From: a virus
IMG/VR virus record: IMGVR_UViG_3300042691_004105
Span: 1 to 22,893 of that record
Direction: 5' to 3' (one strand)
DNA: 22,893 bases
Every line of letters begins with the position of its first letter. Position 1 is the first letter of the stretch. This document shows positions 1,611 through 17,569 of the stretch, one piece after another. Under the pieces are notes generated by a model that had not been told where the DNA came from, did not search any database, and saw only the letters and a program-made list of their open reading frames with translations. The position numbers and the translations under genes are program-made.

Positions 1611-3144
1611 ACTGAATAAAGATCAACTCCTTGAAATTGCTACAGCAGTTGATGCATTAGACAAAAAGTTTAAATACAACAAAGCTAAGACCTACTTCCC
1701 AGATAAGGGTAAGTACTCAAGGGATAAATACCCCAAGCAGATGGAGCTGATGCGTGCTGGTAAGAAACATAGACTTAGGGCACTGGTCGGGGGGAATGGT
1801 TCAGGTAAGAGTCTCTGGTTAGCTTTAGAATCATACTACCATATGTCCGGTAAATATCCAGCTTGGTGGGAAGGTCATAAGTTTACAGGTCCGATAACCG
1901 CATGGCTTTGCGGATTAGACGCTAAGGCGTTAAGAGCAGGTTTACAAGAAATCCTCTTCGGTGGGATCGGTGATGATGACTTCGGGACTGGGGTTATAGC
2001 CCGTGATGATATGACAGATGATTCAGGTCATCTCCAGAAGTGGGCAATGCAAGGTACAGCTAACTGTATTGGACAGTTCAGAGTCAGACATTATACCAAT
2101 GGTGTTTTTGATGGTTGGTCTACTTGTGAATTCATGTCATATGAACAAGGCTGGAAAAGCTTTCAAGGCCCGACTAAGAACTGGATAGGGTTCGATGAAG
2201 AGCCTGAAGATGGTAAGATCTTTGGTGAGTGTGTAGCACGGTTACGGGGTAAGGATGGAGCAAAGCCTGGTCACTTCTTGGCTACCTTTACACCGACAGA
2301 CGGTTTCCGCGACGTATATCTGACGTTTGTCCCTCAAGGGATATTCCCAGAAGATGGTCTCCATGTAGATGATCCATCTAAGTACACAGCGCGTATAGGC
2401 TGGTCAAATAGCCCACATTTAGACGAAGAATGGAAAGCCTCCGCTATTAAACAGTGGGAGCTGACAGACCCAGAGAATATACAAGCCCGTACTGAAGGGT
2501 TTGCAGCGGCAGGATCTGGTAGAATCTTTCCTACACCTGAGTCTGATATAGTAGTTCCTAAGATGGAGATCCCTTCTTACTGGAAACGCTGTTACGGAAT
2601 GGATCCAGGCCAAAAGAACTTTGGTGGTTGCTGGATAGCACAAGACCCAGATACAAATATTTATTATGTATATGATGAATACAAGACACAAAGACACGTC
2701 CTGTATCTGATACACGCAGAAGCTTTTAGAGCACGTGGGAAGTGGTTACAAGGTGGTATCGATCCACATGAAGCATGTAAACCTAGAGATACTGGTGAGA
2801 CAGTCCAGAGTTATTTTCAGACTCAAGGGTTAAATCTTACAGCTGCAAGTGGAGATGAATTAGCTTGGTTAATGAAGATCAGAGCTTGGTTTGAATCAGG
2901 ACAGCTAAAGATTATGGATAACTGTACACAGATCTTATCAGAGTACAGGACTTATCACTATGATAGTAATAACCCTAACAAACCCGCTAAGAACCAACAA
3001 GATCATATATTAGATGCAATGAGATACTGTCTGACTGTATTTGATTCAGTCGCAGAATCTAAAGCTGAGTACGAAGAATCACAGGAACAATCAGACGATG
3101 ATGACCAATTTGATACAGGTCGATCTTCTGTCACTGGATATTAA
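1597..3144 (+). CDS. terL: Terminase large subunit (ATPase-nuclease)
   Basis: This 515-residue packaging motor pumps DNA into the prohead and cuts the concatemer. The N-terminal ATPase has Walker A GGNGSGKS (65-72), Walker B with catalytic acidic residues WIGFDEEP (196-203) and the coupling motif ATFTPT (229-234). The C-terminal RNase H-like nuclease shows acidic residues in the expected order: MDPGQ (D336), GGIDPH (D389) and QDHILDAMRY (D469, D473). Length is typical. The C-terminal tail is acidic and disordered (EYEESQEQSDDDDQ). The ATG overlaps the end of the small terminase and has GAGG inside that gene. Whether packaging is by headful (pac) or cohesive ends cannot be read directly; P22-like neighbours favour headful. 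Confidence 0.96.
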   Translation: MDLNKLNKDQLLEIATAVDALDKKFKYNKAKTYFPDKGKYSRDKYPKQMELMRAGKKHRLRALVGGNGSGKSLWLALESYYHMSGKYPAWWEGHKFTGPITAWLCGLDAKALRAGLQEILFGGIGDDDFGTGVIARDDMTDDSGHLQKWAMQGTANCIGQFRVRHYTNGVFDGWSTCEFMSYEQGWKSFQGPTKNWIGFDEEPEDGKIFGECVARLRGKDGAKPGHFLATFTPTDGFRDVYLTFVPQGIFPEDGLHVDDPSKYTARIGWSNSPHLDEEWKASAIKQWELTDPENIQARTEGFAAAGSGRIFPTPESDIVVPKMEIPSYWKRCYGMDPGQKNFGGCWIAQDPDTNIYYVYDEYKTQRHVLYLIHAEAFRARGKWLQGGIDPHEACKPRDTGETVQSYFQTQGLNLTAASGDELAWLMKIRAWFESGQLKIMDNCTQILSEYRTYHYDSNNPNKPAKNQQDHILDAMRYCLTVFDSVAESKAEYEESQEQSDDDDQFDTGRSSVTGY

Positions 3145-3154
3145 TAGGTAACTA

Positions 3155-5260
3155 ATGTCAGTCAAGAAACTTAAAAAGTACAGTCAGATGGTCAACCTTG
3201 TTGACGAGTTGACTGATGAACAGAAATATGAGATTCAACATAAAGCTATTAATGGCTATGAAGATGACCTCAATTCTATGTCTGAATGGTTGTCTGATGT
3301 CAAGAAAGTCGAAGAGCTTGCAAGTTTAACAGCCGGTAAAAAGAATGTTCCGTTACCTAATTCAGCTAATGTCAAACTACCAATCATCACTAAAGCATGT
3401 TATGAGTTCGCGGCTCGTGTCGTACCTGAGATTCTTAAAGACGATCAAGTAGTCAAAACTAAGGTATTAGGTATTAAACCTACGGAAGCTCAGAAGTTAG
3501 CTGCTATTCGCACATCTGATTTCATGAACTGGCAATTATTGCTAAAGAACTCTGAATGGGCTGACCAGTTAGACATGTTGATGTTACGTCTAGCTCTTGT
3601 TGGCTTTATTTGTAAAAAGACGTACTATGACCCAGTCCGTAAACAGATTAAATCTGAAATCTGTCAGCCAGATGAATTAATTATTAATGCTAAGACTAAA
3701 TCATTAGTAGATGCTAAGCGTATCACCCACAAAATGTGCTGGAGACTTAATACTCTAGTAGAAAACTCTAATAAATCTGAGGATGGTGTGACTGTATTCT
3801 GTAAAGAAGCTGTAGAACGGATACAGAAGCTTAAAAATGATGATCCCCTTGATTCTGATATCTTAGGTATTGAACAATGCATGTACCTAGACTTAGACGA
3901 GGATGGATATCTAGAGCCGTATATAGCAACAATCGCTACAGAGTCTCAAGAATTGCTTCGCTTAGTAGCTCAGTACTCAGAAACTGATATATATGCTGAC
4001 GAAGAAAAGGTTGATCAAGTCTGTTATATAAATAAAGAAGAAGTCTACGAAGATTTTCACTTTCTAAAGAATCCTAAAGGCTGTTTCCAGTCTGTAGGCT
4101 TTGGGATATTGTTGTTACACTTGACAGAGTCTGCTAACTCAACAATTAACCAGTTGTTAGACGCTGGTCAATTAGCTAACATGAAAGGTGGGTTTATGGA
4201 TGCCCGCATGAATACGGTCAAGAAAGGACCAACTAACCATAGACCAGGTGAGTTCCAACTTATAAAGACTTCTACAGGCATGACTTTAAAAGATGGTATC
4301 TTACCAATAGATTTCGGTGAGCCATCACAAGTCTTGTACAACCTATTATCGTTATTGATCGATGTATGCCGAGATTTGACCAGTTCAGCTGAGATTAATA
4401 ATGGTACTCAGTCGTCAGAAAATGCAAAGACTGGTGCTACATTAGCATTACAAGAAGAAGGTAGAAAAGCAGCTACATTGATCAATAAAAGTGTTTACAG
4501 GTCATTAGGTAAAGAATTAAATCACCGGTTCAGATTAAACAACCAATATCTGACTAACCAAGAGTATCGTAATATTATCAATGATACCTTGGCTAACGTC
4601 AAGAATGACTTTAATCTAGAGACCTTTGACGTAATGCCTACAGCAGATCCTAATCTAGCGTCGAGCCAACAAAAGATGGCCGAAGTAGGTTTATTACAAC
4701 AAGTTGGGGCACTCCCTGGAGTAAATCTCGAGAAGATAACTAGTCTTATAATTGATCGAATTAATATTCCAGGCATAAAAGACGTATTGTATACGCCAGA
4801 AGAAAAACAGAGTGCTCCACCAAGTCCAGAAGTCTTGAAGTTACAAGCTGACATGGAAGAAGCAGGTCAGAAGCTTAACATTGAAGGCGCACGTCTAGAA
4901 ATAGAAAAACAAAAAGTCTTTATTCAAGCTCAGTTAGCCGAGGCTCAGATTTTACAGTACAAAGCTAATGCTATGGCTTTACTTGCTAAGGCAGGCTCAG
5001 AAGAGCAAAAAATGCAGCTTCAAGAGCTTACATCTCAGTTAGACATTATCCAACGTGGTATTGATCAAGAGATGGAAACAGCTAAGATGGTTCAAGAACA
5101 GGATCAGATAGCTAAACAGCAAGAACATGAAAAACAAATGCAGATGATGCAGCAGCAAGGGCAGCCTCCAGCAGAAGGAGCACCCCCAGAACGTGGGTTA
5201 CCTCCAGAAGGAGCAATGCCTCCGGAAGGCCAAGTACCTCCTGAAGGACCGCCAGAATGA
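3155..5260 (+). CDS. Portal protein, P22 gp1-like
   Basis: This 701-residue portal forms the dodecameric channel at the special head vertex for DNA entry and exit, and serves as the platform for the tail. Size is close to the P22 portal (725 residues). Its place right after terL and upstream of scaffold and coat genes is diagnostic. Residues about 1-540 hold the wing and stem regions, including the long helical region around LGFGILLLHLTESANSTINQ-type sequence. Residues about 550-668 are a long Gln/Glu/Lys-rich helix, comparable to the P22 C-terminal barrel. The last 32 residues (670-701) are a proline-rich tail with repeated PPEG units. The TGA stop overlaps the next ATG as ATGA. AGGT precedes the start. 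Confidence 0.92.
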   Translation: MSVKKLKKYSQMVNLVDELTDEQKYEIQHKAINGYEDDLNSMSEWLSDVKKVEELASLTAGKKNVPLPNSANVKLPIITKACYEFAARVVPEILKDDQVVKTKVLGIKPTEAQKLAAIRTSDFMNWQLLLKNSEWADQLDMLMLRLALVGFICKKTYYDPVRKQIKSEICQPDELIINAKTKSLVDAKRITHKMCWRLNTLVENSNKSEDGVTVFCKEAVERIQKLKNDDPLDSDILGIEQCMYLDLDEDGYLEPYIATIATESQELLRLVAQYSETDIYADEEKVDQVCYINKEEVYEDFHFLKNPKGCFQSVGFGILLLHLTESANSTINQLLDAGQLANMKGGFMDARMNTVKKGPTNHRPGEFQLIKTSTGMTLKDGILPIDFGEPSQVLYNLLSLLIDVCRDLTSSAEINNGTQSSENAKTGATLALQEEGRKAATLINKSVYRSLGKELNHRFRLNNQYLTNQEYRNIINDTLANVKNDFNLETFDVMPTADPNLASSQQKMAEVGLLQQVGALPGVNLEKITSLIIDRINIPGIKDVLYTPEEKQSAPPSPEVLKLQADMEEAGQKLNIEGARLEIEKQKVFIQAQLAEAQILQYKANAMALLAKAGSEEQKMQLQELTSQLDIIQRGIDQEMETAKMVQEQDQIAKQQEHEKQMQMMQQQGQPPAEGAPPERGLPPEGAMPPEGQVPPEGPPE
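5162..5257 (+). repeat. PPEG repeat tract at the portal C-terminus
   Basis: Residues 670-701 of the portal contain several units of about six residues built on PPEG (PPERGL, PPEGAM, PPEGQV, PPEGPPE). The DNA units are similar but not identical (CCTCCAGAAGGAGC, CCTCCGGAAGGCC). This points to older duplication with synonymous drift rather than recent slippage. The tail is predicted to be extended and disordered. Confidence 0.75.
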
Positions 5261-6753: not shown

Positions 6754-7292
6754 TGGCTAACAAAGCTACTACAAAGTCAACCAACTTAGAAAGTTTAACC
6801 TTAGAGGGTAAAGAAATGTCAAAAGATATAGAATCCAAAGACGTACAGCATAAGACCAAAGAAGAGCTGTCTTATGAACAAAAGAAAGCAATGCGCAGAA
6901 ACGCAATAGATAAAACATCGCGTTTATATTTAGATGATAAATTCAAAGAGAAAGGATTCAATTACCGCATCTGTAATGTAACGCCTGGTAATATTGAGAC
7001 ATACCTCGATAAAGGTTATGAAGTTGTGACCCACCCGATGAGTTCTGGTACAGGTTCCATCTCTCAGCCTGAAGTTGATGGTACGCCTAGAGAATTTGAA
7101 GTCGGAGGAGCGTCTGGTTCGCGTAAAGCAATCTGGATGAGAATCTCTGATGAGAATTTGAAAATGTTACGAGAAATTGAAAAAGAAAATGCTGATAATC
7201 AGACTGCTATGCTTTACCGTGGTAAAGATGGTGGTGGTAACTCGTTTATCCCAGATGGTCATCAGTACGGTAAAATAACAAAGGAAAATTAA
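6753..7292 (+). CDS. Head-module protein of unknown function, with possible second start
   Basis: This 179-residue hydrophilic protein has a low-complexity, charged N-terminus (1-60). A more ordered middle (DKFKEKGFNYRICNVTPGNI, about 62-81, then ETYLDKGYEVV) precedes a Gly/Ser-rich stretch and a helix (DENLKMLREIEKENADNQ). I recognise it only as a recurrent companion of podovirus scaffold genes; no function is established. GGGAGG lies eight bases before ATG 6753. An internal in-frame ATG at 6816 also has a good ribosome binding site (GAGGG at 6804-6808, seven bases away), so a shorter 158-residue form starting MSKDIESKDV is possible. It may be a capsid-bound or assembly protein. Confidence 0.75.
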   Translation: MANKATTKSTNLESLTLEGKEMSKDIESKDVQHKTKEELSYEQKKAMRRNAIDKTSRLYLDDKFKEKGFNYRICNVTPGNIETYLDKGYEVVTHPMSSGTGSISQPEVDGTPREFEVGGASGSRKAIWMRISDENLKMLREIEKENADNQTAMLYRGKDGGGNSFIPDGHQYGKITKEN

Positions 7293-7297
7293 TAATC

Positions 7298-7363
7298 GAT
7301 ATAAAGGATATATAGTGCTTCGGCACGATTACCCTTATATCGGGTAATGAGGTTTAAAATTTT
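7298..7363 (+). promoter_or_regulatory. Structured leader before the pre-capsid gene: two hairpins plus GATATA repeats
   Basis: The 71-base gap holds a direct repeat GATATA-aag-GATATA (7298-7312). A hairpin follows with the extra-stable C(UUCG)G tetraloop: GTGC 7315-7318, TTCG 7319-7322, GCAC 7323-7326. A second perfect 7-bp hairpin has ATTACCC 7328-7334 and GGGTAAT 7342-7348 around a 7-base loop. The GAGG ribosome binding site (7349-7352) abuts the second stem. Neither hairpin is followed by a T-run, so these are not intrinsic terminators. RNA processing, stability or translation control is inferred. Confidence 0.6.
7315..7347 (+). CDS. Candidate 10-codon leader ORF (GTG start)
   Basis: GTG at 7315 opens a frame encoding MLRHDYPYIG, with TAA at 7345-7347. 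AAAGGA (7303-7308) stands six bases before the GTG, a good ribosome binding site. The start codon lies in the 5' arm of the UUCG hairpin and the stop lies in the 3' arm of the second hairpin. The stop is directly followed by the ribosome binding site of the next gene. It could be a leader peptide coupling translation to the downstream gene. It is short enough to occur by chance. Confidence 0.22.
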   Translation: MLRHDYPYIG

Positions 7364-7948
7364 ATGGCAACAGGTTTTGGTTTAAGATTTAAACGTACGC
7401 TACACGGGCAAGCCCCAGTATGTGCTAAATTTTACGTTCCTGCAACTGACTCTACCGCACTTTTAGAAGGTGATCTAGTAACACTAGTTCCCACTACTGG
7501 TGCGATGGATACGGCTGCTGAGGTTCCAGTAGTTACACGAGCAGCGACAGGTAATGTCTTGCTAGGTGTGGTTAAGAGCTTTCAGCCAGACGGGTCTCTT
7601 CCTTTGACTGGTAACTATCGTGCAGCTTCTACTGCTCGTTATGTTAACGTCATTATTGATCCAGATGCAGTATATGAAGCTCAAGAAGATGCAGTAGGTG
7701 GTTCAATTACCGCTGCTGTAGTAGGTGCTATGCAAAATGTTAACGTCATTGTAGCTGCTGGTTCGACTGTAACAGGTCTTTCTGGGACTATGATTGACTC
7801 TAATACTACTACGACTTCTGCTGCTGATCTTAAGATTGTAGGTGTTCCTGCTAATGGTGGCGATAACTACGCTGCTAAATCAGGTGGCGCAATTCTCGAA
7901 GTTATGATTTTGGCTCCGGCTTTAAAATCAACTGACAGTCAATCATAA
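7364..7948 (+). CDS. Probable head decoration or minor capsid protein
   Basis: This 194-residue, Ala/Val/Thr-rich protein is predicted to be mostly beta-strand. It lies immediately upstream of the major capsid gene and follows the structured leader. It resembles a family of pre-coat structural proteins of podoviruses with a pattern like EGDLVTLV (35-42), then LLGVVKSFQPDG (about 66-77), YRAASTARYVNVIIDPDAVY (about 85-104) and YEAQEDA (104-110). No signal peptide or membrane segment is seen. Its location beside the coat gene, and the family's usual place, support a decoration or coat-associated virion protein. This is inference; the exact role is unknown. The start follows GAGG at 7349-7352 with a long 11-base spacer. 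Confidence 0.7.
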   Translation: MATGFGLRFKRTLHGQAPVCAKFYVPATDSTALLEGDLVTLVPTTGAMDTAAEVPVVTRAATGNVLLGVVKSFQPDGSLPLTGNYRAASTARYVNVIIDPDAVYEAQEDAVGGSITAAVVGAMQNVNVIVAAGSTVTGLSGTMIDSNTTTTSAADLKIVGVPANGGDNYAAKSGGAILEVMILAPALKSTDSQS

Positions 7949-7954
7949 GAGGAG
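7948..7954 (+). promoter_or_regulatory. Strong ribosome binding site of the major capsid gene
   Basis: AGAGGAG at 7948-7954, eight bases before ATG 7963, is the longest anti-Shine-Dalgarno match noticed in the window. This fits the coat protein being the most abundant product. Confidence 0.7.
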
Positions 7955-7962
7955 CATAGAAT

Positions 7963-8868
7963 ATGAGTATTCAACGTGGTAATTTTCATTCAGACCTTAT
8001 ATCTGGTCTAGTGGATAAGTGGTTTAGCACAAGACCTACGGATATTGCTCCTTTGCATAACCGTATGTTTCAAGTCCTAAAATCGAATCAAGCTTTTGAA
8101 AGAAATGCTACGATCACGGGTTTTAGCTCGATGTCCGCTAAGCATGAAGATGGTCCAGTGTTACTTGATTCCAGTCAAGAAGCACAAAAGCCCGTCTACG
8201 AACATACGACATTTGCATTAGGTTTTGCAATGTCTATGGAATTGATGGAAGATGGTATTGCATTTAGTCAAGCTTCACGCTTTACTGATATGTTGAAACG
8301 AGCAGCAATGGTGACGAAAGAAATCGTAGCAGCTAACGTAATCAACTATGCAGCTACCTCAGGCTATACGCAAAAAGGTGGTGACGGTGTTGTATTAGCA
8401 TCAGCTAGCCATCCTACTGCAAGTGGTCTACAGTCTAACATCCTTTCAGGCGGTGCAGATTTGAGTGAAGCTTCTCTAGAAGCGATCAGAACTCAGATCA
8501 AACGTGCTAAGGATAACCGTGGATTGTATCAACAATTAGCAATCAATACTTTGATTATCAGCCCTGAACAAGAAGCTGAAGCTCATCGTATCTTGCACTC
8601 ACTCTTGAGATCTGGTACCGCTAACAATGATACCAACTTCTTGAAAGACATGAGCACTGTTAAAGATGTGGTTGTAAACCCATATTTGACCAGTACGACC
8701 CAATGGCAAGTCACTACGACTCATCCAGATGGTCTGAAGTTCTATGTCAGAAAAGAAGCTCAAATCGATAAAGACAATGTGTTCTTAACTGCACAAGGTA
8801 TCTATCGAGCAATCATGCGTATCAGCGCTGGTTGGGATGATTTCCGTGGGATTTATTTCTCTCTATAA
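7963..8868 (+). CDS. Major capsid protein, HK97-fold
   Basis: This 301-residue coat protein builds the icosahedral head. It lacks an obvious cleaved delta domain. An N-terminal arm leads into a segment MSAKHEDGPVLLDSSQEAQK (about 57-76), then a long spine-like helix (RFTDMLKRAAMVTKEIVAAN, about 107-126). A P-domain/A-domain region follows (SEASLEAIRTQIKRAKDN; LIISPEQEAEAHRIL; VVVNPYLT), and a C-terminal strand that ends in DDFRGIYF. This order is typical of HK97-fold coats, and the length is near that of Mu gpT-like coats (about 300). It is much shorter than P22 coat (430) and shows no inserted I-domain. It has the strongest ribosome binding site here. The gene is followed by a highly structured gap. 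Confidence 0.88.
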   Translation: MSIQRGNFHSDLISGLVDKWFSTRPTDIAPLHNRMFQVLKSNQAFERNATITGFSSMSAKHEDGPVLLDSSQEAQKPVYEHTTFALGFAMSMELMEDGIAFSQASRFTDMLKRAAMVTKEIVAANVINYAATSGYTQKGGDGVVLASASHPTASGLQSNILSGGADLSEASLEAIRTQIKRAKDNRGLYQQLAINTLIISPEQEAEAHRILHSLLRSGTANNDTNFLKDMSTVKDVVVNPYLTSTTQWQVTTTHPDGLKFYVRKEAQIDKDNVFLTAQGIYRAIMRISAGWDDFRGIYFSL

Positions 8869-8875
8869 ACTATAC

Positions 8876-8968
8876 ACTCTATGGGCAGGGCATCATGATG
8901 GTGTCCTTCCCCCTAAGAGTCAATCAAGGGTCATATGCAAATCTAATCGTAGGATACGGTATTGACTC
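8876..8968 (+). promoter_or_regulatory. Structured intercistronic RNA after the capsid gene, with two competing pairings
   Basis: A long hairpin pairs ACTCT 8876-8880 with AGAGT 8916-8920, GGG 8883-8885 with CCC 8909-8911, and AGGGCATC 8887-8894 with GGTGTCCT 8900-8907 (two G-T pairs) around loop ATGAT. A second perfect 8-bp inverted repeat pairs GAGTCAAT 8917-8924 with ATTGACTC 8961-8968, and encloses a small stem TCGTA-gga-TACGG. The two pairings share 8917-8920, so the outer helices exclude each other. There is no T-run, so it is not a standard terminator. The downstream GAGG (8972-8975) lies just outside the second stem. Confidence 0.6.
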
Positions 8969-8978
8969 AACGAGGTAA
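8895..8978 (+). CDS. Candidate 27-codon mini-gene or leader ORF
   Basis: ATG ATG at 8895/8898 opens a frame of 27 codons beginning MMVSFPLRVNQGSY and ending YGIDSTR, with TAA at 8976-8978. The last sense codon AGG and the base before it form part of the GAGG ribosome binding site of the next gene, whose ATG follows four bases after the TAA. AGGG (8887-8890) is a weak ribosome binding site and is buried in the hairpin stem, while the ATGs sit in its loop. The amino acid pattern looks protein-like. A small virion or leader peptide, or chance coding over a structured RNA, are all possible. Confidence 0.35.
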   Translation: MMVSFPLRVNQGSYANLIVGYGIDSTR

Positions 8979-8981
8979 TTA

Positions 8982-9521
8982 ATGTCTTATTTTAAAGATA
9001 ACGTGACGTCAAAGGACTCAGTCTGTGTAGCTCCTACTGGTAATAACTCTCAAGACGCTGTCAATGCGATCAAGATTACTGGTACGGCTAATGCTGCTGA
9101 TGCTAATGTCGTCACACTTACAAATGCTAGTCATGGTCAGGCAACTACCATCACTATCGCAGACTGTGGTAATGCTGCTGGTACAATTACTCCGGCTGTA
9201 GGGGGCTATGCTCCTGTCAGATCCGTAGGAGCTGTAACAGCTGGTACTACTCAGACCCAAGCAGGAGCTACAGCTATCACTAAAGATATCACTGTAGTAA
9301 CTACTGGGAATGCTAATGATGGTGTATTGCTTCCTTCGATCAGAGCTGGTCAAGTATTAGTCATAATCAATGCTAGTGCAAATGCTGGCAAGATTTATGC
9401 TAATGGTACTGAAACACTAAACGGTACTGCTGGTAACGCAGGTTCTACGGCACTAGGTGCTAGTAAAGCTGTGACAGTAGTAGGTACTGCTGCTGGTGTA
9501 TCAGTAAGTTATACAAACTAA
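8982..9521 (+). CDS. Probable virion surface or head decoration protein
   Basis: This 179-residue protein is extremely rich in Ala, Thr, Gly, Asn and Val, with short beta-prone segments. A signature-like stretch GVLLPSIRAGQVLVIINASA (about 114-133) is followed by GKIYANGTETLNGTAG. That pattern recurs in accessory structural proteins encoded just after coat genes. No signal peptide or membrane segment is present. It follows the major capsid gene across a structured RNA gap and has GAGG six bases before ATG 8982. Position and composition suggest a decoration or head-fibre protein. I cannot name a family with certainty. Confidence 0.65.
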   Translation: MSYFKDNVTSKDSVCVAPTGNNSQDAVNAIKITGTANAADANVVTLTNASHGQATTITIADCGNAAGTITPAVGGYAPVRSVGAVTAGTTQTQAGATAITKDITVVTTGNANDGVLLPSIRAGQVLVIINASANAGKIYANGTETLNGTAGNAGSTALGASKAVTVVGTAAGVSVSYTN

Positions 9522-9584
9522 AGTCTAGGGGACGGACTATAAATGTCCCCACTAATTCATGTTCTAGATTCGCGAATTGCGAAC
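9522..9584 (+). promoter_or_regulatory. Structured gap: GGGGAC/GTCCCC hairpin and TTCGC/GCGAA hairpin
   Basis: GGGGAC 9528-9533 and GTCCCC 9545-9550 form a perfect 6-bp stem. AGTC 9522-9525 and GACT 9535-9538 offer a weaker, mutually exclusive pairing. Further on, TTCGC 9569-9573 and GCGAA 9579-9583 form a stem around GAATT. The same place contains a 10-bp perfect palindrome ATTCGCGAAT (9568-9577) framed by GTTC 9561-9564 and GAAC 9581-9584. No T-run follows. Role is inferred as RNA processing or regulation; the palindrome could also be a protein-binding DNA site. Confidence 0.5.
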
Positions 9585-9596
9585 ACTAAAAGGTAA
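9543..9596 (+). CDS. Candidate 17-codon leader ORF
   Basis: ATG 9543 opens MSPLIHVLDSRIANTKR, with TAA at 9594-9596. Its last codons AAA AGG form the ribosome binding site of the gene starting at 9602, exactly as in the mini-ORF before 8982. GGACGGA (9530-9536) gives a modest ribosome binding site six bases upstream. The ATG touches the 3' arm of the GGGGAC/GTCCCC hairpin. Translation is unproven. Confidence 0.22.
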   Translation: MSPLIHVLDSRIANTKR

Positions 9597-9601
9597 ATAA
9601 A

Positions 9602-9997
9602 ATGGCTGACGCAGTAAATACTACAGTAATCTATCAAGATACTGTCCGTTATGTAGTTAAAATTACTAACCTGTCAGATGGCACAGGCGAAACTGCCGTC
9701 ACTAAAGTAGATAAATCTACATTGACTGGACCTAATGGTTTGGAACCCACTGAGCTTGTCGTAGAATGCATTGACGCTGATGTTGCGGGTATGCAGGTAT
9801 ACCTATATGCTGACCATACTACAGACGTACCAATCGCTCGTATTGGCGGTTTAGGACGATATAAAAGAGACTTCAGAAAGACAGGTGGTCTAAGTACGGC
9901 TGGAGCTGGTGATACTGGAGATATCTTATTGACTACTAATGGTCATAGTTCAGGTGATAGTTACGATATTACTCTTTATTTAAGAAAAAAGGATTAA
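9602..9997 (+). CDS. Small virion-associated protein, probable structural
   Basis: This 131-residue protein is predicted to be mainly beta (NTTVIYQDTVRYVVKITNLS at 6-25; TELVVECIDADVAGMQVYLY at about 50-69; DSYDITLYLRKKD at the C-terminus). It starts after AAAAGG. It resembles a recurrent small structural protein found between coat and tail genes in podoviruses, with the pattern of a YxDT..YV.K.TN strand and a GxGRYKRDFRKTGGL loop (about 84-98). The role could be head completion or decoration. Assigned by position and fold impression only. Confidence 0.65.
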   Translation: MADAVNTTVIYQDTVRYVVKITNLSDGTGETAVTKVDKSTLTGPNGLEPTELVVECIDADVAGMQVYLYADHTTDVPIARIGGLGRYKRDFRKTGGLSTAGAGDTGDILLTTNGHSSGDSYDITLYLRKKD

Positions 9998-10424: not shown

Positions 10425-11357
10425 ATGATTTTAGACAGTACTACTAAAAGTATCGATGTTTTAATGGGGGAAGCTATTACAACTTCTAACCCAGACTATG
10501 TAGTAGCCTATGATGACATAACTACCACTACTTTTATTCCTAAATCTTCAGATGGTGCTTTAAACGGTACGTCTGTTGTAAGTATTGTGTCAGCTCCTAG
10601 CGCTTCAACTCAAAGGCATGTAAAGTATATAAGTATTAATAATACCGATACCGTATCACATACTATTACTATAAGACTAAATAATAACTCTACTAATAGA
10701 GTTCTTTACAAAGCTACATTAGCAATAAATGAAGTTTTACAATATACAGAGGGTCTTGGGTTTGAATGCTATCAAAAAGATGGTAATATAAAAGTATCTA
10801 CATCTTTACCGGGTGTTATTCAGTCTTTTTTAAGACCAGTGAGTTATGTATACGGATCTATATCTGGATCTGCGAGTTTTCCTACAGATAATACAGTAGC
10901 TTATTTCATGGGGATAGCTACAAAATCATCTAGTTCTGTAAATGTTATTATAAGTTGCGTTACTACAGCAATGTCTGGAACTACTTATTCAGAAGTAGGT
11001 ATTGGGGTGTATAAAGGTCCGATGCAAAGTTCCCAAATGATAGCTAACAATGTAGCTGAAATGAAAGTCTTAGGATATACGGATACTAGCTCTGTGTTTA
11101 ATAGTACTGGAATAAAGAATATTAGCGTTTCACTATCTCCATCAATTCAGCCTGGAGACGCTATATTTTTACTACAAGCTCATCAAGCTACAACAACACC
11201 TACATTAAGAACTACTACTACAGCTTATAGTACTCAATTGACCAGTAACGTGATGCACACTCAAGCTGGAGCTAGGATATCTACTACCTCTCCTTTAAGA
11301 TTAGGTACTATTACTGGTAATAACCCCTTAATAATAACAGCTATATATTTAAATTAA
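10425..11357 (+). CDS. Fibre-like accessory structural protein, copy 1 of a tandem paralogue pair
   Basis: This 310-residue, Thr/Ser/Asn-rich, beta-predicted protein begins MILDSTTKSIDVLMGEA. An N-terminal domain (1 to about 125) contains ASTQRHVKYISINNTDTVSH (about 60-79), a pattern shared by many phage virion proteins of the ILD.TTKS type. A second domain (about 135-310) includes SSSVNV, TYSEVG, LGYTD, NSTGIKN and QATTT blocks. The next gene shares all these blocks in the same order, so the two arose by duplication. No signal peptide. Probable head fibre or tail surface protein exposed on the virion. The molecular target is unknown. Confidence 0.75.
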   Translation: MILDSTTKSIDVLMGEAITTSNPDYVVAYDDITTTTFIPKSSDGALNGTSVVSIVSAPSASTQRHVKYISINNTDTVSHTITIRLNNNSTNRVLYKATLAINEVLQYTEGLGFECYQKDGNIKVSTSLPGVIQSFLRPVSYVYGSISGSASFPTDNTVAYFMGIATKSSSSVNVIISCVTTAMSGTTYSEVGIGVYKGPMQSSQMIANNVAEMKVLGYTDTSSVFNSTGIKNISVSLSPSIQPGDAIFLLQAHQATTTPTLRTTTTAYSTQLTSNVMHTQAGARISTTSPLRLGTITGNNPLIITAIYLN

Positions 11358-11366
11358 TAGGTATAT

Positions 11367-12263
11367 ATGATTATATTAGATTCTACTACTAAAAGCATAA
11401 CTGCAGTCATGGATGTAGCAGCAGCTACTAATAATCCAGATGTCACCTGTGCCTATAGTGATATAACTACCTCGACTTTTAGTCCAGCATCTTCCGATAT
11501 AGTATTAAATGGTACTACTCCCGTAACAATTGTGTCTAGTCCGGCTAGTTCTACTCAACGACAATTAAAATATATTAGTATTAACAATACAGATACTATA
11601 GCCCATCAAATAACAATAAACTATAATAACAATGGTACATACAGAGTGTTAGTAAACTGGGTACTAAACTCAGGTGATACTTTATTATATACTTCTAATA
11701 GTGGTTGGGTTATTACAGACTCGACAGGCTCAAAAAGACCTGGATCATCTTCTTTAGTAGGAAGTCAATTTCTTTCTCCTATATTAGAAGCTGCTAATAC
11801 GTCAACTACTCTAAGTCTTACTAGCACTACATCATACGCTACATATTTAGGTGTAAGTCCAAAAGTCAGTTCCTCAGTAAATGTATGTTTTAACGTAACT
11901 ACGGCTTGTGCTACTATCACGTATGCCGAAGCTGCAATATTTAAAGGTAATGTAAATCTAAATGGTAATCCCACATTAACTAGACTGGGGTATGCTGATA
12001 TAAGTGGTATTGCTAATAGTACCGGTGTAAAAAACGTACAAATAACACTAAGCACTCCAGCAAATATAAATGATACTTTGTGGTTAGTCTTAGGAGATCA
12101 AGCTACTACTACGATGGTAATCAGAGCTGGATTAGCTGATGATATTCAATCTGGAATACTAGCTACATTATCTGCTAGACCTTCTACAGCTACAAGTCCT
12201 ACAGCTTGGACTATAGCTGCTAATACTATCGCGGTGCCTTGGGTATCTGCATTTGTGAATTAA
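11367..12263 (+). CDS. Fibre-like accessory structural protein, copy 2 of a tandem paralogue pair
   Basis: This 298-residue paralogue of the preceding protein begins MIILDSTTKSITAVMDVAA. The N-terminal domain is the better conserved part: ILDSTTKSI, DITT.TF.P.SSD, LNGT, STQR..KYISINNTDT are common to both. The C-terminal domain keeps SSSVNV, TYAEAA, LGYADIS, NSTGVKN, and QATTT, with many substitutions between. The level of divergence suggests an old duplication or acquisition of two alleles, not a recent assembly artefact. Probably assembles with or alternates with copy 1 on the virion. AGGT precedes the ATG. Confidence 0.75.
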   Translation: MIILDSTTKSITAVMDVAAATNNPDVTCAYSDITTSTFSPASSDIVLNGTTPVTIVSSPASSTQRQLKYISINNTDTIAHQITINYNNNGTYRVLVNWVLNSGDTLLYTSNSGWVITDSTGSKRPGSSSLVGSQFLSPILEAANTSTTLSLTSTTSYATYLGVSPKVSSSVNVCFNVTTACATITYAEAAIFKGNVNLNGNPTLTRLGYADISGIANSTGVKNVQITLSTPANINDTLWLVLGDQATTTMVIRAGLADDIQSGILATLSARPSTATSPTAWTIAANTIAVPWVSAFVN

Positions 12264-17400: not shown

Positions 17401-17401
17401 T

Positions 17402-17569
17402 ATGACATTATCAGAAAAGCTTAAGCTTATTTATCCTGAGCTTGACAGTATAACTGATGTATTCTTAGATACGATTATACTCCAAGATGATGGTCAAGGA
17501 GCTTATATCAAAGAATGGAAGTATACTAAGCCACAACCTACACAAGACGAGCTAGACAGTATTATATGA
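17402..17569 (+). CDS. 55-residue tail-fibre-associated protein
   Basis: ATG 17402 opens a 55-codon frame beginning MTLSEKLKLIYPELDSITDV and ending in KPQPTQDELDSII, with TGA at 17567-17569. It has GGGAG upstream at 17392-17396 and its end overlaps the next start as ATGA. The layout, a short helix with YPEL, a central DDGQGAYIKEW motif and a terminal Y.KP.PTQDEL, is typical of small proteins following phage tail fibre genes, sometimes described as XkdW-like or fibre-assembly proteins. It fills what would otherwise be a 165-base gap. Function is unproven. Confidence 0.75.
   Translation: MTLSEKLKLIYPELDSITDVFLDTIILQDDGQGAYIKEWKYTKPQPTQDELDSII

Follow-up and report, generated by a model that had tools for sequence, protein, structure and literature searches.

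Predicted stem-loops behind the major capsid gene and before a conserved 131-amino-acid gene in a gpT-type phage

We analyzed IMG/VR virus record IMGVR_UViG_3300042691_004105, a 22,893-nucleotide (nt) stretch of DNA (the window) that carries the capsid module of a phage, with attention to three gene-free intervals: gap 1 (7293-7363), gap 2 (8869-8981), and gap 3 (9522-9601). Two predicted stem-loops, one at the 3' border of the major capsid gene in gap 2 and the other before a 131-amino-acid (aa) gene in gap 3, are shown to be conserved when the window is compared with its nearest relative, and many other relatives are rich in hairpins at the same positions. By analogy, the gap 2 hairpin is best read as a variant of the known T7-like logic in which a terminator stands behind the capsid gene, a function that we infer. 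An original prediction, made from the letters of the window, had treated all three gaps as one family of translation-coupled leaders, each with a hairpin and a tiny open reading frame (ORF). The gaps, the stems, and the ORFs were all present where that prediction had placed them. However, the single three-member family did not survive, since gap 1 has neither a conserved sequence nor a hairpin in relatives. The window thus trades a speculative leader-peptide family for a pair of conserved stem-loops, the first of which stands behind the capsid gene, along with features that look like chance.

Stem-loops in the gaps downstream of the capsid gene

The elements of gaps 2 and 3 and the genes that border them are as follows.

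7963-8868, plus strand: major capsid protein gene of the Mu gpT type (Pfam PF10124, PHROG 371), with hairpin A at its 3' side
8876-8920, plus strand: hairpin A, with outer stem ACUCU/AGAGU (8876-8880 with 8916-8920), GGG/UCC, and core AGGGCAUC/GGUGUCCU (8887-8907)
8917-8968, plus strand: element B, in which GAGUCAAU (8917-8924) can form 8 perfect pairs with AUUGACUC (8961-8968)
8982-9521, plus strand: 179-aa gene 3' of gap 2, in the slot of the relatives' FSGPV-type gene by synteny
9528-9550, plus strand: gap 3 hairpin, GGGGAC-GGACUAUAAAU-GUCCCC
9569-9583, plus strand: second, small gap 3 stem TTCGCGAATTGCGAA, specific to the window and within an insertion relative to the nearest relative
9602-9997, plus strand: conserved 131-aa gene with the gap 3 hairpin upstream, 59% identical in the nearest relative

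Compared with dinucleotide shuffles, the stems in the gaps are only modestly unusual (minimum free energy [MFE], P = 0.061, 0.027, and 0.017 for gaps 1, 2, and 3, respectively). Evidence for conservation comes from L002, the nearest relative, which has the same gene order and is 61%, 50%, and 59% identical in the terminase, the capsid protein, and the 131-aa protein. In local alignments, both gap 2 and gap 3 were conserved with this relative (P = 0.001 for each, with the ribosome binding site excluded in gap 3). All 16 pairs of hairpin A are retained there through three double changes and one single change, so that ACUCUAUGGGCAGGGCAUCAUGAUGGUGUCCUUCC...AGAGU in the window corresponds to ACUUGAUGGAUAGGGCAGCAUGGCCGCUGUCCUUCC...AAGU, and the probability of such compensatory change ranged from 0.0003 to 0.022 under two null models. 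The gap 3 hairpin likewise keeps 6 of 6 pairs, three of them changed on both sides (P = 0.004 to 0.088): GGGGAC-loop-GUCCCC is replaced by GCUGGC-loop-GCCAGC, while the loop motif GGA(C)UAUAAA and the 3' flank ACUAAUUC are common to the two phages. The MAFFT alignment of gap 3 was wrong, and local and structure-anchored alignments were used instead; the P values for this hairpin are optimistic because a structure-anchored alignment favors pairing. Compensatory changes, the generic mark of a structured RNA, were therefore seen in 3 of 16 pairs and 3 of 6 pairs, in L002 only. Searches of viral contigs with terL, the capsid gene, and the 131-aa gene (226 relatives for the last, of which the best 80 were retained) returned L002 as the only close kin, and the terL search of genome contigs gave one remote match. 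The DNA pattern of hairpin A matched L002 and, inside the tape-measure gene of another locus (L054), a site that we rejected as chance.

Element B is less well conserved. Its helix closes a weakly folded loop of 36 nt (fold z = -2.1), and on its own the element gave P = 0.08 for conservation with L002, where GUCAAU is retained and the 3' partner is not. The outer stem of hairpin A and the 5' arm of element B share nucleotides, which makes the two pairings mutually exclusive in the window. A switch in gap 2 is nonetheless speculative, since L002 retains the hairpin A pairing without the element B partner.

Structured RNAs behind capsid genes of relatives

Homologous capsid genes were found in 20 phage records, and hairpin scores were surveyed behind 71 capsid genes below 80% identity, with thresholds chosen in the present analysis. 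Within 110 nt 3' of the capsid stop codon, 62% of relatives had a score of at least 22, compared with 13% before the capsid gene and 10% of random stretches. At a score of at least 26, the corresponding values were 47%, 6%, and 3%. A similar picture emerged when each stretch was ranked within its own genome: the MFE fell in the top 5% for 24 of 48 post-capsid stretches and for 4 of 44 before the capsid gene. Ahead of the 131-aa gene, a score of at least 22 was reached in 53% of 15 relatives versus 5% of random stretches, and the form GGGGGCUUCGGCCCCC occurs there in many marine phages. At the position of gap 1, a top-5% hairpin was present in only 1 of 22 relatives, which is no excess. We conclude that hairpins recur at the positions of gaps 2 and 3 and not at that of gap 1. 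Stem-loops conserved as RNA structure are supported for two of the three gaps.

Some of the post-capsid hairpins are textbook intrinsic terminators (L042; L043, with AAAGGGGCGGTGTTCACATCGCCCCTTTTTTT; and L050). At most loci, they are GC-rich stem-loops without U-tracts, and a TTTT run accompanied the hairpin in only 22 of 102 loci, so plain intrinsic termination is no general answer. The hairpins of L042, L043, L045, L050, Caulobacter phage RW, and Alcaligenes phage QDWS535 share the window's position, a homologous capsid gene, and a strong stem; they differ in that several are true intrinsic terminators with U-tracts and in that their stem sequences are unrelated to those of the window.

In several relatives, the post-capsid hairpin is followed by a second element immediately ahead of the next gene, the product of which often starts M..(T/S)HFSGP or M.TTFSGP. 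In Roseobacter phages CRP-901 and CRP-902 and in three further loci (L077-L079), this element is the Rfam family RF03012, Mu-gpT-DE (70.8-72.3 bits), and it ends at the start codon of the next gene. Gap 2 resembles it in location, as both directly follow a gpT-type capsid gene and lie at the next gene's ribosome binding site, and element B occupies the same position within the gap. However, RF03012 had no match up to E = 10 in window positions 7200-9700, where at least 49 bits would be expected of a member, and its best match anywhere in the window scored 8.6 bits on the minus strand at 3116-3189, outside the gaps. The architecture also differs: in place of the compact 53-nt fold of Mu-gpT-DE, the window contains a long-range helix of 8 bp preceded by a larger stem-loop.

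A different RNA occupies the post-capsid gap of eight freshwater loci, in the form of a three-way junction, RAGUYAAU-P2-UAAA-P3-UACUY. A covariance model built from these eight loci (R1) recovered three loci outside its training set (L151, L147, and L143) and had no other match in 440 kb. The 11 loci, all in the gap between the capsid gene and the next gene, are as follows.

First six R1 RNA loci: L020:4949-4997, L013:4696-4742, L011:4979-5024, L021:1927-1972, L016:3509-3554, L023:4073-4119
Other five R1 RNA loci: L028:2336-2383, L025:4925-4973, L151:2351-2399, L147:3962-4002, L143:3956-4002

All three R1 helices covary, with 13 cells changed on both sides versus 4.4 in shuffles (0 of 500 shuffles were as high). 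Rfam had no match at gathering scores to the R1-type RNA in the loci that were scanned, and for L013 a search up to E = 1 returned only one weak microRNA-family match, elsewhere. The RNA is a candidate for a new family. A pattern scan of viral contigs for R1-type RNAs gave 18 stretches, of which the model accepted seven. Six of these had a capsid gene on the contig, in each case with the motif close behind it; in the seventh, the contig was short and the motif lay 279 nt from its end.

The window shares with R1 the gap, the RAGUYAAU start, and the closing partner (GAGUCAAU at 8917-8924 with ACUC at 8965-8968), but the inner helices P2 and P3 are not recognizable in it. That pair drove a score of 9.7 bits for the window (E = 0.015 in a search of 151 nt; absent at E = 10 from a search of 440 kb). 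We rejected membership at this score, given the 32 to 62 bits of R1 members. L002 scored -0.3 bits, and because it lacks the RAGUYAAU/ACUY pairing, this pairing is a weak criterion. The likeness of gap 2 to R1 in position and in the RAGUYAAU word is suggestive only.

Several other observations concern the same region in relatives. In L042 (3904-4034) and L043 (3919-4072), a common core, CTGAC(C)TAG.CAGAC...AGAGA, precedes the next gene and is enclosed by outer stems that are wholly different yet complementary (CTCGTATCT/AGATACGAG versus ATTTTGTAG/CTACAAAAT). This core is reminiscent of the Mu-gpT-DE core CUGACA.UAGCCA but does not match the RF03012 model. Behind the capsid gene of L046 (3880-3925), a near-perfect sigma-70 promoter (TTGACA, 17 nt, TATAAT) lies within a 20-bp inverted repeat. 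By eye, group I intron-like sequence (GGGAAACCCTAAAGCC, GGTAATCAGCAGCCAAGC) follows the apparent end of the capsid frame in L185, behind position 3798, suggesting an intron inside the capsid gene. HNH-type endonuclease-like ORFs, also recognized by eye, stand directly behind the capsid gene on the opposite strand (L015/L154 and L036) or the same strand (L146), suggesting that the post-capsid region of these loci is a homing hot spot.

Gap 1, tiny ORFs, and other features of the window

The features that we judged to lie outside the conserved pattern are as follows.

7297-7342, plus strand: gap 1 hairpin, with 8-bp arm CGAUAUAA/UUAUAUCG and tip GUGC-UUCG-GCAC
7315-7347, plus strand: gap 1 tiny ORF, 10 codons, GTG start
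8895-8978, plus strand: gap 2 tiny ORF, 27 codons, ATG start
9543-9596, plus strand: gap 3 tiny ORF, 17 codons, ATG start

Gap 1 showed no sequence similarity to L002 (Smith-Waterman P = 0.71), in which the hairpin is absent, and this hairpin looks like chance. We excluded the three gaps as one family on these grounds, together with the lack of a hairpin excess at this position in other relatives.

The tiny ORFs look like chance as well. Each was said to stop at or immediately before the next ribosome binding site. All three do end near the next start codon, but those of gaps 2 and 3 run through the ribosome binding site and stop just 3' of it. When gaps were shuffled with the ribosome binding site held fixed, an ORF of at least the same length whose end lay no more than 18 nt from the next start arose with a probability of 0.17, 0.13, and 0.31 for gaps 1, 2, and 3, respectively. 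ORFs at this chance level are expected, as stop codons are provided by the AT-rich stretch that separates the ribosome binding site from the start codon. In L002, gap 1 holds no tiny ORF, gap 3 holds only a TTG ORF whose peptide is unrelated to that of the window, and a 7-mer shared in gap 2 (GCAAATC) is read in different frames. Thus, neither an ORF beyond chance nor in-frame conservation in relatives, as expected of a leader peptide, was found, and we ruled out the ORFs as coding or coupling elements. The outcome named in advance as fatal to the original prediction, in which shuffled gaps often give the same features or relatives lack them, applied to the ORFs and to gap 1 and left the gap 2 and gap 3 stems standing.

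As had been claimed, the three gaps are the only sizeable gene-free intervals after the start of the window, here taken as downstream of position 233 and with the cut-off 3' end set aside. An apparent gap of 165 nt (17401-17565) is occupied by a 55-aa ORF (MTLSEKLKLIYPELDSITDV...; 17402-17569), which overlaps the next start codon (ATATGA). Positions 1-233, at the start of the record, are gene-free and have a predicted fold of -54 kcal/mol, without a tRNA or Rfam match. Across the whole window, searches for tRNA or tmRNA genes and for known Rfam RNAs found none.

The gene order of the window is terminase, portal, GroES-like, scaffold-like, two small genes, capsid, the 179-aa gene, the 131-aa gene, and tail-side genes. 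The capsid protein matched Pfam PF10124 (Mu-like_gpT, E = 1.9e-5, above the curated cut-off) and PHROG 371 (major head protein, E = 4.6e-11). The putative GroES-like gene was labeled by the slot it shares with annotated relatives. The 179-aa product had no match in Pfam, PHROGs, or Protein Data Bank sequences, and solved structures gave no sequence match that would identify the neighbors of the capsid gene. Relatives of the 131-aa protein also occur in T4-like pelagiphages (Mosig EXVC030M and HTVC008M), and the protein therefore crosses phage lineages. Farther downstream, two tandem genes (10425-11357 and 11367-12263) are paralogue-like in that both products start like M(I)ILDSTTKSI.

A possible barrier behind the capsid gene

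Tailed phages need hundreds of capsid proteins for every few copies of portal or adaptor, all from neighboring genes. We propose that the capsid expression unit may have its 3' border in gap 2, where a hairpin would serve as an attenuator or as a barrier at the mRNA 3' end. A short, structured leader for the next gene would come after it and, in gap 3, a weaker hairpin; we put the probability of this reading at about 0.5. Hairpin A, directly behind the capsid stop codon, would be a partial barrier on the mRNA that lessens transcription into the downstream genes, blocks 3'-to-5' decay of the capsid message, or both, and capsid mRNA would then outnumber downstream mRNA. We infer that the barrier acts on transcription or mRNA decay, and likewise its direction. 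Element B, close ahead of the ribosome binding site of the 179-aa gene, would serve as the 5' leader of that gene. In gap 3, a weaker version of the barrier would stand before the conserved 131-aa gene; the tiny ORFs and the gap 1 hairpin would have no role. The precedent is found in the T7-like phage LUZ100, in which an apparent strong terminator stands right behind the capsid gene, as in T7 (PMC10134795). That terminator (Tphi in T7) is thought to hold capsid expression above that of downstream genes, and the window resembles both phages in having a stem-loop immediately after the major capsid gene. The window's lineage differs from theirs in its gpT-type capsid protein and in the GroES-like gene and scaffold upstream.

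Several results weigh against this proposal. The intrinsic-terminator combination of GC-rich stem and U-tract was found at neither hairpin: the stem at 8887-8907 is followed by TCCCCCTAAG and that at 9528-9550 by ACTAATTC, and a plus-strand scan detected no terminator-like site at either. The scarcity of TTTT runs among relatives points the same way. The missing U-tracts set the window apart from T7 and LUZ100, and termination here is suggested by analogy only; they argue against simple intrinsic termination and leave room for processing or a leader-type role. In addition, the covariation rests on one pair because L002 is the sole close relative in the searched collections, and the random control is mostly coding, so part of the hairpin excess could reflect gaps generally.

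The leader-type role is a possibility that we regard as appreciably less probable. Gap 2 would be a cis-regulatory leader that works like Mu-gpT-DE: in response to capsid protein or some other factor, it would expose or block the ribosome binding site of the downstream gene. The switch would lie in the overlap of two pairings, AGAGU with the upstream ACUCU and GAGUCAAU with the downstream AUUGACUC. The mutually exclusive pairings of the window suit this idea, as does the fact that exactly the post-capsid gap is occupied by RF03012 in CRP-901/902 and L077-L079 and by another covarying RNA, R1, in 11 other loci. But the window matches neither RF03012 nor, convincingly, R1, and L002 has not kept the 3' partner of element B. 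We know of no functional test of Mu-gpT-DE, which also counts against this leader. A role in processing, with the hairpins as RNase III or RNase E sites that split the capsid message from its neighbors and have no transcriptional effect, seems unlikely. RNA processing sites at the late-gene cleavage sites of T7 are a known solution in T7-like phages, and the GC-rich stem-loops without U-tracts at most loci would fit, but the perfect stems of the window (8 to 9 bp) are short for RNase III.

It is quite improbable that the stems lack an RNA function and are either chance folds of spacers rich in AT or elements that act as DNA, such as promoters. The single-sequence z-scores of only about -2 would allow it, and TATAAA in the loop of the gap 3 hairpin looks like a -10 box. 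However, compensatory changes and the positional excess of hairpins in relatives speak against it, sigma-70-like sites in the gaps were at the shuffled level, and a promoter-like repeat common to the gaps was sought and not found. Least probable, to the point of being barely credible, is the regulatory family of three translation-coupled leader peptides: the three ORFs are present and each ends close to the next start, but they are at chance level, L002 does not share them, and the gap 1 hairpin is not conserved.

A broader view, which we find doubtful, is that the post-capsid gap is a hot spot in which different RNAs of unrelated lineages (Mu-gpT-DE, R1, the CTGACCTAGCAGAC-type element of L042/L043, and the bipartite element of the window) sense capsid supply and tune the next structural gene. 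If so, the element of the window, with its two mutually exclusive pairings, would represent a new class of RNA. An undescribed system in the strong sense is not what we found, as the post-capsid gap of relatives already hosts Mu-gpT-DE and ordinary terminators. Of the proposed control of virion stoichiometry, what stands is a plausible role for gaps 2 and 3 in capsid-gene stoichiometry, since both are conserved in L002 and hairpin-rich in many relatives. If a post-capsid RNA proved general in gpT-type phages, it would explain where the orphan Rfam family Mu-gpT-DE belongs and would offer a small, testable element for stoichiometric control.

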